The position numbers were made by a program, and so were the translations under genes. A model generated the notes under the pieces. It made no database searches. It saw only the letters and a program-made list of their open reading frames with translations, and had not been told where the DNA came from. A DNA stretch of 45,536 nucleotides from Acidobacteriota bacterium (lineage in GTDB: Bacteria > Acidobacteriota > Vicinamibacteria > Vicinamibacterales > UBA8438), in contig JAGWAJ010000001.1 of assembly GCA_021296475.1 (NCBI GenBank), positions 1 through 45,536 on the forward strand, given 5' to 3'. The first letter of the stretch is position 1. Every line of letters begins with the position of its first letter. This document shows positions 36,864-43,264 of this stretch, one piece after another.

Positions 36864-37418
36864 CTAGCCGCGGGCGTCCGGCTCCGTCGGATGCGTACCC
36901 GAGTCGGGCGCGGACTGGGACGCCGGCGCTGCGGATGCGGACACCTCAGGTGCAGATGCCTCGGGTGCGGATGCCTCGGGTGCGGACGCCTCGGGTGCGG
37001 ATGCCTCGGGTGCGGACGCCTCGGGTGCGGACGCCTCGGGTGCGGATGCCTCGGGTGCGGACGCCTCGGGTGCGGACGCCTCGGGTGCGGACGCCTCGGG
37101 TGCGGACGCCTCGGGCGCGGACACCTCGGATGCGGACGCGTCCGGCGCCGACGCTACGGAGCCGGAAGTCGCGGGTACGGACGCCGCGGACGACGGCTGG
37201 CCGGGCTTCGTGGCGGCGGCCGGCGCGGTCGCGGGGCGCCGTTCCTCGACGCGGATCTCGTCCTCGAGGGTGTTGCGGAGGTCGTTCGAGGCGCGCTTGA
37301 ACTCGCCGAGGCTCTTGCCCAGCGAGCGGCCGAGCTCGGGGAGTTTCCGCGGGCCGAAGACGATCAGCGCGATGACGAGGATGACGATCATCTCCGGCAT
37401 GCCGATTGAGCCGAGCAT
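36864..37418 (-). CDS. tatA: Sec-independent translocase subunit TatA, with repeat-rich tail
   Basis: TatA multimers weaken the membrane for folded-protein export. MLGSIGMPEMIVILVIALIVFGPRKLPELGRSLG is a short membrane helix, the FGPRKLPELG hinge and an amphipathic helix (KSLGEFKRASNDLRNTL), about 60 residues in all. The remaining 120 residues are unstructured and dominated by 12 copies of a five-residue repeat, (A/V)SAPE. AAGGAG lies seven bases before the ATG and a strong promoter upstream. The TatA/TatB split cannot be settled; TatA/E type is favoured by the hinge. Confidence 0.92.
   Translation of the reverse strand: MLGSIGMPEMIVILVIALIVFGPRKLPELGRSLGKSLGEFKRASNDLRNTLEDEIRVEERRPATAPAAATKPGQPSSAASVPATSGSVASAPDASASEVSAPEASAPEASAPEASAPEASAPEASAPEASAPEASAPEASAPEASAPEASAPEASAPEVSASAAPASQSAPDSGTHPTEPDARG
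36946..37125 (-). repeat. 15-bp coding minisatellite in tatA
   Basis: Twelve consecutive 15-base units, ten of them identical except for one T/C position (plus strand TCGGGTGCGGAYGCC, 36961-37110). The flanking units at 36946 and 37111 carry one or two changes. Each encodes (A/V)SAPE in the tatA frame. The near-identity suggests recent expansion by slippage or unequal exchange; length changes would keep the frame. Confidence 0.92.
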
Positions 37419-37465
37419 GGTGACGCTCCTTGGACCTCGGGAAGCCCGGATCGAGCCCCTCCGGC

Positions 37466-37495
37466 ATTATAGAAACCGCCGCGCAGGGGGGTCAA
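37466..37495 (-). promoter_or_regulatory. Predicted sigma70 promoter of tatA-tatC
   Basis: On the minus strand TTGACC (37495-37490), an 18-base spacer and a perfect TATAAT (37471-37466). Transcription would start near 37459, about 40 bases before the tatA ATG. This is the best promoter match in the window. Confidence 0.7.
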
Positions 37496-37567
37496 GCGGC
37501 GGCCGCGCCGCGGGATCCCGCGAAGTCGTTGTTGCGTCGCACCTTATCTGATAGTAGGATGCCGGCC

Positions 37568-39187
37568 ATGCGGGGCATGACATCTCTGACGGCAGGCATC
37601 GGCGTCATCGTGTTCTCGGCGCTGGTAGGCGGCTTGTTCGGCGGGCGGGTCCTGGCGCAGCAGGACTCGATGACCCGTCATTTCGACGCCTTTGCGTCCG
37701 CCCTCGCGGCGATCGAGGCGAACTTCGTCGACGAGGTCGACTCCGAGCGGCTGGTGTATCGCGCCATCGGCGGCATGCTCCAGACGCTCGATCCCCACTC
37801 GAACTTCATGGATCCGCGCTCGTACGCGCAACTGCGCGAGCGGCAGGAGGGGCGGTACTACGGCCTCGGGATTCGAATCAACGTGCTCGACGGCCGGATT
37901 ACGGTCATGAGCCTGTTCGAGGGCTCGCCGGCCTACCGGTCCGGGATTCGCGCCGGCGACGTCATCGCCCGCATCGAAGGCGAGAACGCCATCGGCATGA
38001 GCAGCGAGCAGGCGGTGCGCCGGCTGCGCGGCCCCCGCGGCACCACGGTCAACATCTCGATCCGGCGCGACGGGTACGAGGATCTGATCCCTCTCGACGT
38101 GGAGCGGGACGAGATCAATATCCCGACCGTCAGGGCCTCGTTCATGGTCGACGGCGAGACGGGATACGTCCGTCTCGGCGACTTCTCGGAGACGAGCAAT
38201 CGCGAGCTGCGCCGGGCGCTCGACCGGCTGCAGGCCGAAGGGATGGGGCAATTGCTGCTCGATCTGCGGGACAACCCGGGGGGGCCGCTCGATCAGGCGA
38301 TCAGCGTGTCGAACCAGTTCCTGCCCCGCGGCGACATGATCGTCTACACCCGCGGGCGCGTCTCCAACTCCGATCAGGACTACCACGCCCGCGACGAGAG
38401 CGACTTCACGGGCCTGCCCATCATCGTGCTGGTCAATCGCAGCAGCGCGAGCGCCTCGGAGATCGTCGCCGGCGCCCTGCAGGATCACGACCGTGCCCTC
38501 GTCGTCGGGGAGACCACCTTCGGGAAGGCGCTGGTCCAGTCAATCTACCGCGTCAGCCACGGCGCCGGTCTCGCGCTGACGACGGCGCGCTACTACACGC
38601 CGAGCGGCCGGATGATCCAGCGGCCCTGGGACGGCACGTTCGACGAGTACCTCACCTACTCGCTCCGCGAGCAGGAGACGCCGCTGCGAGCGCCCGCCGA
38701 CCGTAAGTTCACCGACGCCGGACGCGAGGTGTACAGCGGCGGAGGCATCGAGCCCGATCACTTCATGGCCGGTCCGATCCGGGGCTTCGATCCTTCGCGA
38801 CTCGGGCGGCTGCTGGCGGCTCGGGGGGATTTCGCATATTTCGCCCGGCGGTTCTCCGCCGTCGGAGACACGCGCATCCCGGTCGAGGGCGACGGCCGGG
38901 AGCTCGTGAGCCGCGGATTCACGGTGGACGACCGGCTGCTGGAGGCCTTCAAGGAGCAGGTACGGAGCCGCGGCCTCACGGTCGACGACGAAGACTTCGC
39001 CGGCGACACGGACTTCATCCGCGCCATGATCCACTACGAGGTGGACCTGGCCCTGTTCGGGGAGGCCGAGGCGTGGGCCAACCTCTTCGTGCGCGACCCG
39101 CAGGCCCAGTTCGCCGTCTCGCTGTTCGGCGACGCGCGGCGCCTCCTCGACCTCTCCGACGACGCGCTCGTGGCGGCAGCTCGCTGA
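37568..39187 (+). CDS. Carboxy-terminal processing protease, S41 family
   Basis: A 539-aa periplasmic serine protease anchored by an N-terminal membrane segment (residues 5-25, LTAGIGVIVFSALVGGLF). The PDZ domain (about 90-170) has YYGLGIRINV and SPAYRSGIRAGDVIARIEG. The protease core has LLDLRDNPGG, the catalytic Ser in VNRSSASASEIVAGAL (about S293) and Lys in TFGKALVQS (about K320). The family trims or degrades envelope proteins. The C-terminal 150 residues are not part of the catalytic core. ATG 37568 has a GTAGG nine bases upstream; ATG 37559 is possible. It is divergent from tatA. Confidence 0.92.
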   Translation: MRGMTSLTAGIGVIVFSALVGGLFGGRVLAQQDSMTRHFDAFASALAAIEANFVDEVDSERLVYRAIGGMLQTLDPHSNFMDPRSYAQLRERQEGRYYGLGIRINVLDGRITVMSLFEGSPAYRSGIRAGDVIARIEGENAIGMSSEQAVRRLRGPRGTTVNISIRRDGYEDLIPLDVERDEINIPTVRASFMVDGETGYVRLGDFSETSNRELRRALDRLQAEGMGQLLLDLRDNPGGPLDQAISVSNQFLPRGDMIVYTRGRVSNSDQDYHARDESDFTGLPIIVLVNRSSASASEIVAGALQDHDRALVVGETTFGKALVQSIYRVSHGAGLALTTARYYTPSGRMIQRPWDGTFDEYLTYSLREQETPLRAPADRKFTDAGREVYSGGGIEPDHFMAGPIRGFDPSRLGRLLAARGDFAYFARRFSAVGDTRIPVEGDGRELVSRGFTVDDRLLEAFKEQVRSRGLTVDDEDFAGDTDFIRAMIHYEVDLALFGEAEAWANLFVRDPQAQFAVSLFGDARRLLDLSDDALVAAAR

Positions 39188-39190
39188 CCC

Positions 39191-39220
39191 TTGCCGGCCC
39201 GCCGGCCGCCTTGCTACACT
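39191..39220 (+). promoter_or_regulatory. Predicted promoter in the ctp-smc gap
   Basis: TTGCCG (39191-39196), an 18-base spacer and TACACT (39215-39220), preceded by an extended -10 TGC. Each box matches sigma70 consensus at 4 of 6 positions. Transcription would start near 39227, about 177 bases before smc and 145 bases before the terminator-like hairpin. Confidence 0.5.
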
Positions 39221-39226
39221 GCGGGG

Positions 39227-39375
39227 TAGCGTGAAGGTGTGGAGCCATCCCTGCGTGAGAGTCGCAGGTGGCGACATGCCGCGCAGTCGCTTCAGCGCGT
39301 ACGACGTCCGGGCGCACCCAGCCGCTCGAACAGGTGTTGCGATGATGCAGGAACCTGTTTGTGCGGCTCGTTTTG
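39227..39375 (+). ncRNA. Candidate small RNA or structured leader upstream of smc
   Basis: Between the promoter at 39191-39220 and the terminator-like hairpin lie two further stems: GCCA-TC-CCTGCG (39244-39255) pairing with CGCAGGTGGC (39263-39272) over a TGAGAGT loop with a TC bulge, and CGCGC/GCGCG (39280-39299). No open reading frame of note fits. I do not recognise SRP RNA, 6S, tmRNA or a known riboswitch core. It could be a free RNA of about 145 nt or an attenuating leader of smc. If the promoter is false, the hairpin may simply end the protease transcript. Confidence 0.4.
39320..39374 (+). terminator. Intrinsic terminator-like hairpin before smc
   Basis: AGCCGCTCGAACAGGT (39320-39335) pairs with ACCTGTTTGTGCGGCT (39353-39368): 15 pairs with one T-T mismatch and one G-T pair, loop 17 bases. 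CG and then TTTT (39371-39374) follow. It is the only hairpin with a T-run in the window, and lies 30 bases before the smc ATG. Confidence 0.65.
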
Positions 39376-39403
39376 TGTACGCCGCCGTGTGAAGTCTCGC
39401 ATA

Positions 39404-42400
39404 ATGCGTTTGAACCATCTTGAGTTGGCCGGCTTCAAGAGCTTCCCGGAGCGCGCCGAGCTGGCGTTCGACGGCGGCGTCACCGCCATCGTCGGGCCGA
39501 ACGGCTGCGGCAAGAGCAACGTCATCGACGCGATCACGTGGGTCCTCGGCGAGCAGAGCGCCCGGAGCCTCCGCGGTGAGCGGATGGAGGACGTGATCTT
39601 CGGCGGCAGCGACGCGCGCCGCCCCACCGCCGCGGCCGAAGTGCGCCTGCGGCTGTCCGACGTTGCCGCCGCGCTGGCCGCGCTGGGCGGTCAGGTGCGG
39701 CCCGTGGCTCCCCCCCGCAGCGACCAGGGTGAGGGCGGGGAGTCCGACCGCGACGGTGCAGCGGCTGGCAACGGACACCTCGACGGCGCGCTGCCGGAGG
39801 ATCCCGATCTCGAGCCGCCCCTCGTGCAGCGCGACGTCGAGGTAGGGCGGCGGCTGTACCGCTCGGGAGAGAGCGAGTATTTCATCGACGGGCAGGTCTG
39901 CCGCCTCCGCGACGTGCAGGACCTCCTGATGGACTCGGGCGTCGGCGTCAAGGCCTACGCGGTCATCGAGCAGGGGCGGATCGGTCAAATCCTGGGAGCG
40001 CGCCCGGCGGAGCGCCGGCAGCTCCTCGAGGAGGCGGCCGGCGTCACGAAGTACAAGTCGCGGCGCCGGTCGGCCGAGCTCAAGCTCGAGGCCGCGCAGC
40101 AGAACCTGACCCGCGTCGACGACATCGTCTTCGAGGTCGAGAAGCAGCGCGGGGCGCTCAAGCGGCAGGCGGCCCGGGCGCGCCGTTACCGCCGGCTGCG
40201 CGAGGAGTTGCGGCGCTGGGAGAAGGTCCACTTCGCGCGGACCAGCCTGGCGCTCGGAGCCGCCATCGAGGACGCCGATGGCCGGTTGGAGGAGTCCCGG
40301 GCGCGCGAGCGGGCGTGTGCCGCGCGGGTCGCGGAGCTGGAGGGCGCCGAAGAGAAGCTTCGCACGGCGCTGGGCGAAGCGGATCGGGAGGCGGGCGTCA
40401 CGCGGGACGAGGCGCATCGGCGCCAGCTCGATCTCGACCGCCGGCGGCAGCGGATCGAGTTCGACCGCCAACAGGTGGCGACGCTGGCCGAGGCGGTGGC
40501 GTCCGGCGAGGCGGAGGTGACCGCCCTGGAGGCCCGCTGCGGCCCGTTGCGGGCGGAGCTCGACAGCCAGCGGACGGCGCACGACCGCTGCGGCACGGAG
40601 CGCGAGGCCGCGGCGGAGCGGCTGGACGCCGAGGCGGCCCGGTTCGCGGAGGCGCAGCAGGCGGTGGAGGAGCTGGCCCGTGGCCTCGAGGGGGCGCGGA
40701 GCCAGGTCTACGCGGCGGCCACGGAGAAGACGGCGCTGGAGAACGTGGTCGCCAATGCCGATGCCGGCCAGGCGCGCATCCGCGAGGCGCTCTCCCGCCT
40801 GGAGGCCGAGTCGGCCGACGTCGCGACCGAGCTCGCCCGCAGCGACGAAGCGTCCCGCCGGGCCGAAGACGCCGCCCGCGAGGCGCGCGCGGCCCTCGAG
40901 CGGGTGCGAGCCGACAGGGCGGTGCGCGAGGCCGAGGTCGGGGCGGCGCGCACCGGGGCGGCGGAGGCGGCGCGCGCCGTGCGCGAGCGGGAGCGCGAGG
41001 TGGCCGCGTTTCGGGCCCGGGTCGAGTCCCTGGAGGAGCTCGAGGCCGGCCGGACGGCGTACGCCGACGCGGCCCGCATCGTCCTGGCGTCGGAGATCCC
41101 GCACCACGGGTCGGTGGCCGACCACCTCGAGGTCGACCGGGCCGACGAGCGCGCCGTGGAGGCCTGCCTGGCGGACCTGCTGCAGCACGTGGTCGTCGCC
41201 TCGCACGAGGACGCCCTGGCCGGCATCGCGCTGGCTACGGAGCGCGACGCCGGTCGCTGCGGCTTCCTCGTGGCGTCGTCCTTCAGCGGCCGCGCGGTGT
41301 CGCCGCCGCACGAGAGCCTGCGGCCGATCGCAGATGCCGTGCGCGTCGGCGGCCCGGCCGGGGAGGCAGTGCGGTCGGCGATCGGCGGTCGGTGGCTCGC
41401 CCCCTCGATCGCGGAGGCGGAGGCGGCGGCCCGGAGCACCGTCGACCCGATCGTGGCCCCCGACGGCACGGTGTTTCGCGGCGAGACGCTCGTGTCGGGA
41501 GGCGGGAGGTCGGCGGCGCGGGGGCTGCTGTCGACCAAGCGCGAGATCAAGGAGCTGCGGGCCCGCATCGTCGCGGAGGAAGAGGCCGTCGCCGGCCTGC
41601 ACGCCGACGTGGCGAGGCTGGAGGCCGAGGCGGCCCGCGCCGCGGAGGCCCTCGAAGGGCTCAAGCGGGAGGGGCACGAGCACGAGAAGACGCTGGTCGG
41701 TCTCGACGCGGACTTGCGGCAGGTGGGGGAGGGGCGCGCCAGGCTGATGGATCGGCAGCGCGTCGTCGCCACGGATCGACGGACCGCGGTCGAGGAGCGC
41801 GACGGGCTCGCCGCGAAGCAGGCGGAGGCCCGCGCGTCGCTCGTCCGTCTCGCGGCGGAGCAGGCTGCGGCCCAGGACCGCTTCACCCGGTCCGAGGAGC
41901 GGCTGGTCGAGGCGCGCGAGGCGGTCGAGGCCCGCGGCCGGCAGGTCGCCGACGTGCGGTCCGAGCACGCGACGCTGGCGGAACGCGCGGCGGCGCTGGC
42001 CGCGGACGTGCGGCGTATCGAGGACCAGGTCCGCGATCTCCTCCAGCGCATCGATGCGCGCGGGACCGAGAACCGCAACGCCGCGGAACGGCGAACCGCG
42101 CTGAGCGCCGCGATCGAGGCGGCCGTCGGCCATCTCGAGCACGACGCCGCGGCCTTCGACGAGCTCCAGGAGCGGATGCGGCACATCGGCGAACGCGGCG
42201 CCGCCCTCCGCGAGCGCATCGCCGCGGAGAGCGACGGCGTGCGGGACGCGCGGCAGGCGCTCGAGGATGTGCGGTCGGACGTGGGCCGCATCGAGGTCGT
42301 GCGCGCGAAGGCCGATGCCGATCTCGCGCACGCCGCGGCGTCGTGCCGGGAGACACTGCAACTCGAGCTCGGGGAGGTCGTCGCCGAGGTCGAGCGCCTG

Positions 42401-43264
42401 GAGCGCGAAGGTCCCATCGAGCCCGATCGGTCCCTGCTCGGCCCCCCCGGGAACAGTGCCGCCGGCGCCGACGCCGACGCGACCGGGGACGACGCCACCG
42501 AGGACGATGACGCCGGGCACGATGCCGTCGGAGACGCCGCCGCCACCGGGGACTCGCCGGCCGTCGTCGAGTCTGAGGCGGAGGCGGGCGCGGCAGAGGG
42601 CGCGGCGGAGCGGAGCGCCACGGTCGACGTCGATGACATCCTGGTCCGGCTGCGCTCGAAGATCGACCGGCTCGGGCCGGTCAACATGATGGCCATCGAC
42701 CAGTTCGACGAGCTCGAGGAGCGCCACACCTTCCTGACGACGCAGCGGCAGGACCTCCTAGACGCCATTGCGGCCACCGGCAAGGCCATCCAGCAGATCG
42801 ACGTCACCACGCGCGAGCGCTTCGAGCACGCTTTCGCGGCCATCAACGCGTACTTCCAGGACACGTTCGAGACGCTCTTCGGCGGCGGGCGCGCCGGGCT
42901 GGTGCTGCTCGACGAGGCCGACGTGCTCGAGAGCGGCATCGACGTCATCGCGCAGCCGCCGGGCAAGCGCCTCCAGAGCATTCAGTTGCTCTCCGGCGGC
43001 GAGAAGGCGCTGACGGCGATGGCACTGATGTTCGCCATCTTCAAGTACAAGCCGAGCCCCTTCTGTCTGCTCGACGAGATCGACGCGCCGCTCGACGACG
43101 CCAACATCGGTCGTTTCGTCGAGATGCTGCGCGGGCTGCAGGCCCGCACGCAGTTCGTCCTCGTGACGCACAACCGCAAGACCATGGAGATTGCGGACCG
43201 GCTCTACGGCGTCACGATGGAGGAGCCGGGCGTCTCGAAGCTCATCTCCGTCAAGGTCAACTGA
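39404..43264 (+). CDS. smc: Chromosome partition protein SMC
   Basis: SMC is the ATP-driven loop extruder that compacts chromosomes with ScpA and ScpB. The 1286-aa product has MRLNHLELAGFKSFPERAEL, Walker A GPNGCGKSNVIDAITW (31-38), two long coiled-coils around a hinge (about residues 545-690, with PHHGSVADHLEV and GRSAARGLLSTKREI at its ends), signature LSGGEKALTAMALMF (about 1196) and Walker B FCLLDEIDAPLDD. Two low-complexity inserts are unusual: about 95-143 in the N-terminal head and about 1013-1075, the latter very acidic. GTG 39389 is a possible earlier start. Confidence 0.95.
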   Translation: MRLNHLELAGFKSFPERAELAFDGGVTAIVGPNGCGKSNVIDAITWVLGEQSARSLRGERMEDVIFGGSDARRPTAAAEVRLRLSDVAAALAALGGQVRPVAPPRSDQGEGGESDRDGAAAGNGHLDGALPEDPDLEPPLVQRDVEVGRRLYRSGESEYFIDGQVCRLRDVQDLLMDSGVGVKAYAVIEQGRIGQILGARPAERRQLLEEAAGVTKYKSRRRSAELKLEAAQQNLTRVDDIVFEVEKQRGALKRQAARARRYRRLREELRRWEKVHFARTSLALGAAIEDADGRLEESRARERACAARVAELEGAEEKLRTALGEADREAGVTRDEAHRRQLDLDRRRQRIEFDRQQVATLAEAVASGEAEVTALEARCGPLRAELDSQRTAHDRCGTEREAAAERLDAEAARFAEAQQAVEELARGLEGARSQVYAAATEKTALENVVANADAGQARIREALSRLEAESADVATELARSDEASRRAEDAAREARAALERVRADRAVREAEVGAARTGAAEAARAVREREREVAAFRARVESLEELEAGRTAYADAARIVLASEIPHHGSVADHLEVDRADERAVEACLADLLQHVVVASHEDALAGIALATERDAGRCGFLVASSFSGRAVSPPHESLRPIADAVRVGGPAGEAVRSAIGGRWLAPSIAEAEAAARSTVDPIVAPDGTVFRGETLVSGGGRSAARGLLSTKREIKELRARIVAEEEAVAGLHADVARLEAEAARAAEALEGLKREGHEHEKTLVGLDADLRQVGEGRARLMDRQRVVATDRRTAVEERDGLAAKQAEARASLVRLAAEQAAAQDRFTRSEERLVEAREAVEARGRQVADVRSEHATLAERAAALAADVRRIEDQVRDLLQRIDARGTENRNAAERRTALSAAIEAAVGHLEHDAAAFDELQERMRHIGERGAALRERIAAESDGVRDARQALEDVRSDVGRIEVVRAKADADLAHAAASCRETLQLELGEVVAEVERLEREGPIEPDRSLLGPPGNSAAGADADATGDDATEDDDAGHDAVGDAAATGDSPAVVESEAEAGAAEGAAERSATVDVDDILVRLRSKIDRLGPVNMMAIDQFDELEERHTFLTTQRQDLLDAIAATGKAIQQIDVTTRERFEHAFAAINAYFQDTFETLFGGGRAGLVLLDEADVLESGIDVIAQPPGKRLQSIQLLSGGEKALTAMALMFAIFKYKPSPFCLLDEIDAPLDDANIGRFVEMLRGLQARTQFVLVTHNRKTMEIADRLYGVTMEEPGVSKLISVKVN

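Follow-up and report, generated by a model that had tools for sequence, protein, structure and literature searches.

In the trp leader, the T-box and the terminator riboswitches, a promoter is followed by a structured 5' domain and by an alternative hairpin, one strand of which also belongs to an intrinsic terminator. The region between ctp and smc in an Acidobacteriota bacterium of the order Vicinamibacterales has the same arrangement and, like these systems, lies in the leader of a single gene; however, it stands before smc, its 5' domain has no counterpart among the Rfam models, and there is no conserved leader peptide. To our knowledge, neither RNA-based control nor an RNA switch of smc has been reported. 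6S RNA, an abundant structured bacterial RNA, is of comparable length, but its model does not match the smc leader, and it was rejected as an identity since the only RF00013 match of the genome (G000; 62.1 bits, above the Rfam gathering score) lies on another contig (C87:12990-13180). Acido-1 and Acido-Lenti-1 (RF01686, RF01687) are also candidate structured RNAs from Acidobacteria, with unknown function; they have been entered as not cis-regulatory (PMC2864571), and neither was matched in the window or in eight related leaders. Among 4227 Rfam models, none matched the window above its gathering score and permissive thresholds returned only chance matches to microRNA models, in agreement with the original prediction, in which no known RNA family was recognised. 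A survey of premature terminators, which likewise lie within 5' leaders, contains almost no attenuator predictions with associated functions for Acidobacteria, and smc is not mentioned in its main text (PMC2965389); the smc element differs from those predictions in its covariation support across many families of one order. No description of an smc attenuator or of RNA control of smc was found in a literature search. The smc leader looks like an undescribed RNA switch, of which the switching itself is predicted, and the region is probably the 5' leader of the smc mRNA, acting in cis as a transcription attenuator.

The window, that is, the whole stretch of DNA analysed (45,536 nt), comes from a GC-rich bin of 3.17 Mb, and many genomes of the comparison set are MAGs. 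On the + strand, which carries all features of the leader, ctp (37430-39187, the latter being the last base of its stop codon) was assigned by Pfam and synteny to an S41 C-terminal processing protease with a PDZ domain (Peptidase_S41 and PDZ), and it is the 5' neighbour of the leader in the relatives examined. The presumed regulated gene, smc (39404-43264, +), encodes the chromosome-partition SMC ATPase (SMC_N and SMC_hinge in Pfam) and starts at the ATG at 39404. The smc frame runs without a stop through the leader back to a GTG at 39239, and automatic gene callers may therefore annotate a wrong, longer smc in the window. Such an N-terminal extension (39239-43264) was rejected because the frame is closed near the ATG in several relatives (9 nt before it in L010, L018, L021 and L024) and genus mates carry a 1-nt deletion. 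A conserved short leader ORF was not found; the sole ATG-started frame read in the leader of the window begins at 39276, and a leader peptide or ribosome-mediated attenuator was rejected because this ATG is lost in genus mates. Farther upstream, the minus strand (36864-37418) encodes a predicted TatA-like protein with a long (EASAP)n repeat run at its C-terminal end, and the same repeat appears as a long ORF on the antisense strand of this gene.

The promoter TTGCCG-N18-TGC-TACACT of the original prediction is present at 39191-39220, four bases 3' of the ctp stop codon. It was recognised from its sequence as a -35 element TTGCCG (39191-39196; order-wide consensus CTTGCC) and an extended -10 element TGC-TACACT (39212-39220; TGC at 39212-39214, TACACT at 39215-39220), with 18 nt between TTGCCG and TACACT. 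The window contains the strict pattern TTGC-N15-18-TGBTASACT once (0.02 expected) and the whole 3.17 Mb genome twice; a strict pattern lies before smc in 89 of 126 genomes, compared with 0.05 expected from shuffled sequence. In families f2 and f4, the promoter mostly stands directly before smc with a short leader, and f5, f7 and part of f10 have neither promoter nor leader, with ctp almost abutting smc in f5 and part of f10. The promoter is predicted to be that of smc. Across the smc upstream regions L080-L181, conservation between families extends to the spacer between the -35 and -10 elements (CCACTANGGCTAGGC and similar sequences) and to an AT-rich segment near -50 (CCCAAAATATTGTGG), which is unusual for a plain promoter; they are partly palindromic, as if bound by a regulator.

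Downstream of the promoter, the predicted folds, the covariance model R1 (the terminator hairpin and its flanks) and covariation all point to an intrinsic terminator hairpin, AGCCGCUCGAACAGG...CCUGUUUGUGCGGCU, at 39320-39368. Its folding energy is -29.3 kcal/mol and CGTTTT comes directly after it, with the T-run at 39371-39374, so that the hairpin with a TTTT run (39320-39374) that had been proposed just before smc does exist, ending 29 nt before the gene. The tail, CGTTTTGTGTACG (39369-39381), was delimited by its sequence and by the relatives; the nine bases 3' of the stem contain 5.0 T on average, and several T-runs in the family of the window are weak (GTTGTT, in some only GTTGTTG). In 42 sequences the covariation score of the terminator is 0.250, versus 0.115 when shuffled and at most 0.090 when slid, with double changes in 7 of 11 pairs, and f1, f3, f8 and f11-f15 retain a terminator-like hairpin that shows compensatory changes. 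The stem ends about 15-45 nt before the smc start in most members (17 in L091, 28 in L085 and 35 in the window). Therefore, there is scarcely space for a second promoter between the two, and smc must be transcribed through the terminator. Directly after the T-run, GTGTACG or GTACG (39375-39381 in the window; L009-L034, L077-L086) is found in f1, f3, f8, f13 and f14; it is not conserved in f15 and f12, and it would fall beyond the end of a released RNA. Pairing of this tail with an upstream GTAC was rejected, being confined to the genus of the window.

The element was followed outward from the window by several searches. At the DNA level, the region is about 88% identical in three genus mates and only pieces are found farther out. 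In the 400 nt before smc, the order ctp, promoter, variable leader, hairpin and smc is seen in 20 of 26 family genomes; the hairpin is diverged in five genomes of genus g9, and in G006 ctp lies 41 nt from smc and the element is absent. Of 162 genomes of the order, 38 have an R1 match, always a single one, and 36 of the 38 matches, including all those with E < 0.003, lie directly upstream of smc; the exceptions, in G119 and G132, are weak matches (E 0.004-0.007). In 396 genomes sampled from the phylum, R1 found nothing outside Vicinamibacterales at E<=0.001. A multi-copy or mobile element was rejected, as there is one strong copy per genome. The element is absent from f5, f7, much of f2 and f10, and genus g4 of the family of the window, and it is therefore dispensable. 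In G060 (contigs C4 and C46) and G154 (C14 and C46), two strong matches to the Smc N-terminus were found each, which may be duplicated genes or contamination.

The original prediction had left two options, a small RNA gene or a leader that attenuates smc. The structure and its conservation are confirmed. Promoter, structured RNA and intrinsic terminator form the complete layout of a small-RNA gene, and the 5' domain opens where the transcript should open, as would suit a stand-alone RNA of about 145 nt acting in trans, with smc transcribed by leaky termination or from ctp. In 162 genomes, however, strong matches are never away from smc, relatives without the RNA retain the promoter immediately in front of smc, an smc promoter would scarcely fit 3' of the terminator, and a conserved hairpin competing with the terminator would have no obvious use in a small RNA. 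The cis-acting attenuator is preferred mainly because smc must be transcribed through the terminator; it is further favoured by the restriction of the strong element to sites upstream of smc, by relatives that lack the RNA and have smc directly behind the same promoter, and by the competition of a conserved alternative hairpin with the terminator. A small RNA gene is accordingly regarded as unlikely.

This alternative hairpin, here termed SL2, was missed by the original prediction and is the most informative element of the leader, whose anatomy is larger than had been described and comprises promoter, 5' domain, SL2 and terminator. SL2 (39310-39327), a small hairpin identified by folds and covariation as a putative antiterminator, reads GGGCG-CACCCAGC-CGCUC and presents a CCCAGC loop. 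In most families it is GAGCG-NNCCCAGC-CGCUC, and the stem becomes GAAGCG/CGCUUC in f15 and GGUUG/CAAUC or UUCUG/CAGAA in f6, with the loop near-invariant (40 of 46). An ungapped alignment of 33 distinct copies has 88% of its cells paired, compared with 82% when shuffled and at most 43% when slid, and its covariation score is 0.236 versus 0.139 and at most 0.104, respectively. When copies from f6 and f12 are included, 92% of cells are paired versus 75% in shuffles, none of which reaches 92%, and both sides change in 4 of 5 pairs, although some f6 stems were aligned by eye, which may favour pairing. Elsewhere in these genomes the motif AGCG-NN-CCCAGCCGCT occurs at background frequency only, and a multi-gene SL2 regulon was rejected on this ground.

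The co-changing stem also bears on whether the inverted repeats might be DNA operators for a regulator instead of RNA structures. The promoter spacer, with its partly palindromic sequence conserved throughout the order, would suit such operators; against them, the half-sites of SL2 change together from family to family, and since they do so around an asymmetric, near-invariant loop, the pattern fits an RNA and not a fixed operator. DNA operators are therefore considered extremely improbable.

The 3' strand of SL2, CGCUC, sits within the 5' arm of the terminator (39320-39327). Because they share these bases, SL2 and the terminator are mutually exclusive. Folding of partial transcripts of the window gives SL2 until the 3' arm of the terminator is made and the terminator from then on. 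In the window SL2 is worth -4.8 kcal/mol and the terminator -29.3 kcal/mol; being far weaker, SL2 should lose to the terminator without help. The same difference in stability, together with the loss of the leader in several families without apparent harm, would agree with a constitutive 5' UTR, in which the terminator insulates smc from read-through out of ctp and holds smc at a fixed low level without regulation. An insulating terminator would, however, be expected before the smc promoter and not behind it, SL2 covaries even in genomes that have lost the terminator, and conservation of the 5' domain extends over several families, all of which makes an unregulated UTR distinctly unlikely.

The 5' domain of the window is a long bulged hairpin at 39229-39284, predicted by folds. 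It contains the bulged stem 39244-39272 of the original prediction, GCCA-UC-CCUGCG...CGCAGG-UGGC, as part of the larger hairpin, and the folded region of the leader is more stable than shuffled sequence (z = -2.46; 2 of 200 shuffles are equally stable). The second stem that had been proposed, at 39280-39299, fared less well: the inverted repeat exists and is partly kept within the genus, but it is not seen in other genera and is unused in the predicted folds. After the family set had been extended by the sequences upstream of smc from about 100 more genomes, the RNA of f6, f15, f3, f9, f12 and f13 was found to open at the predicted start with a P1, P2, GGGGC bulge and P3, and independent folds of divergent sequences gave the same shape. 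R2, a model of the 5' domain built on f15 only, matches f6 and f3 members in the same position. In the resulting alignment of f15, f6 and f3 (22 rows, one of which, L024, is the terminator rather than the 5' domain), 81% of cells are paired, compared with 68% when shuffled and at most 48% with the partner strand slid, counts that are biased towards the model since the alignment was fitted to R2. The covariation score is 0.387 versus 0.181 shuffled and at most 0.123 slid, with double changes in 17 of 24 pairs and an invariant GGGG bulge. Compensatory changes among relatives, which had been suggested as a check on the original prediction, are above both the shuffled and the slid controls for the 5' domain, SL2 and the terminator alike.

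R2 has no match in the genome of the window, whose own 5' domain lacks the GGGG. By its resemblance to the other families, seen by eye only, this domain may be a degenerate relative of the P1-P2-GGGGC-P3 domain, with GGAGCCAUCC in place of GGGGCCAUCC. Two R2 matches fall outside the family pattern, one away from smc (G172) and one on a different contig from smc (G103). An extension to other orders was rejected, as neither of these matches stands before smc and R1, in the 396 phylum genomes, finds nothing outside the order at E<=0.001.

Family f6 mostly keeps the 5' domain and SL2 and usually loses the terminator. Therefore, attenuation is not the sole function of the leader. Where the terminator is lost in f6 (L122-L140), a GGUGU/GGUGGUGU motif immediately precedes the smc ATG, perhaps as a ribosome-binding site, which would point to translational control. 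Alternatively, the leader might be a post-transcriptional element, its 5' domain and SL2 governing how stable the smc mRNA is or how it is translated, with the terminator acquired later or serving as a 3'-end or processing signal; this would account for f6 and for GGUGU just before the smc start. It sits poorly with the families (f1, f3, f8 and f11-f15) whose terminator-like hairpin is retained with compensatory changes, and such an element seems highly improbable.

The features of the preferred reading, a cis-acting transcription attenuator, are a promoter upstream and an intrinsic terminator between the predicted start and the start codon, both by prediction, as well as a covarying terminator and a conserved alternative hairpin that excludes it. 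The proposed sequence of events is as follows. RNA polymerase would start at about 39227, at the promoter directly behind ctp, and transcribe the structured 5' domain first; SL2 would then fold while the terminator is still incomplete. With SL2 kept in place by a ligand, a protein or the 5' domain, transcription would continue into smc; otherwise the terminator, as the more stable of the two, would form and a leader RNA of about 145 nt would be released, with termination at 39371-39378. The sequence, its position throughout the order, the compensatory changes in the three structures and the overlap of SL2 with the terminator are observed; the start site, the termination, the antitermination by SL2 and the existence of a signal are inferred. 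Given the energy gap between SL2 and the terminator, one of the three stabilising factors named above would have to assist SL2. In a more specific version the leader would be riboswitch-like: docking of its 5' domain, possibly through GGGG:CCC pairing with the CCCAGC loop, would let it sense a metabolite, an ion or a protein and so set the amount of SMC condensin; this version is offered tentatively and is rather unlikely. Where the domain is intact, the GGGG bulge and the SL2 loop are nearly invariant, and covariation therefore cannot test this pairing.

The element provides a covariance model, precise mutations to make, and natural variants from across the order with the terminator, without the terminator and without the leader. 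Therefore, both the switch and its signal are directly testable. If the attenuator reading is true, an entire order of soil bacteria, abundant and poorly cultivated, would set its supply of the chromosome-organising SMC protein through a decision made by RNA as the smc transcript begins.
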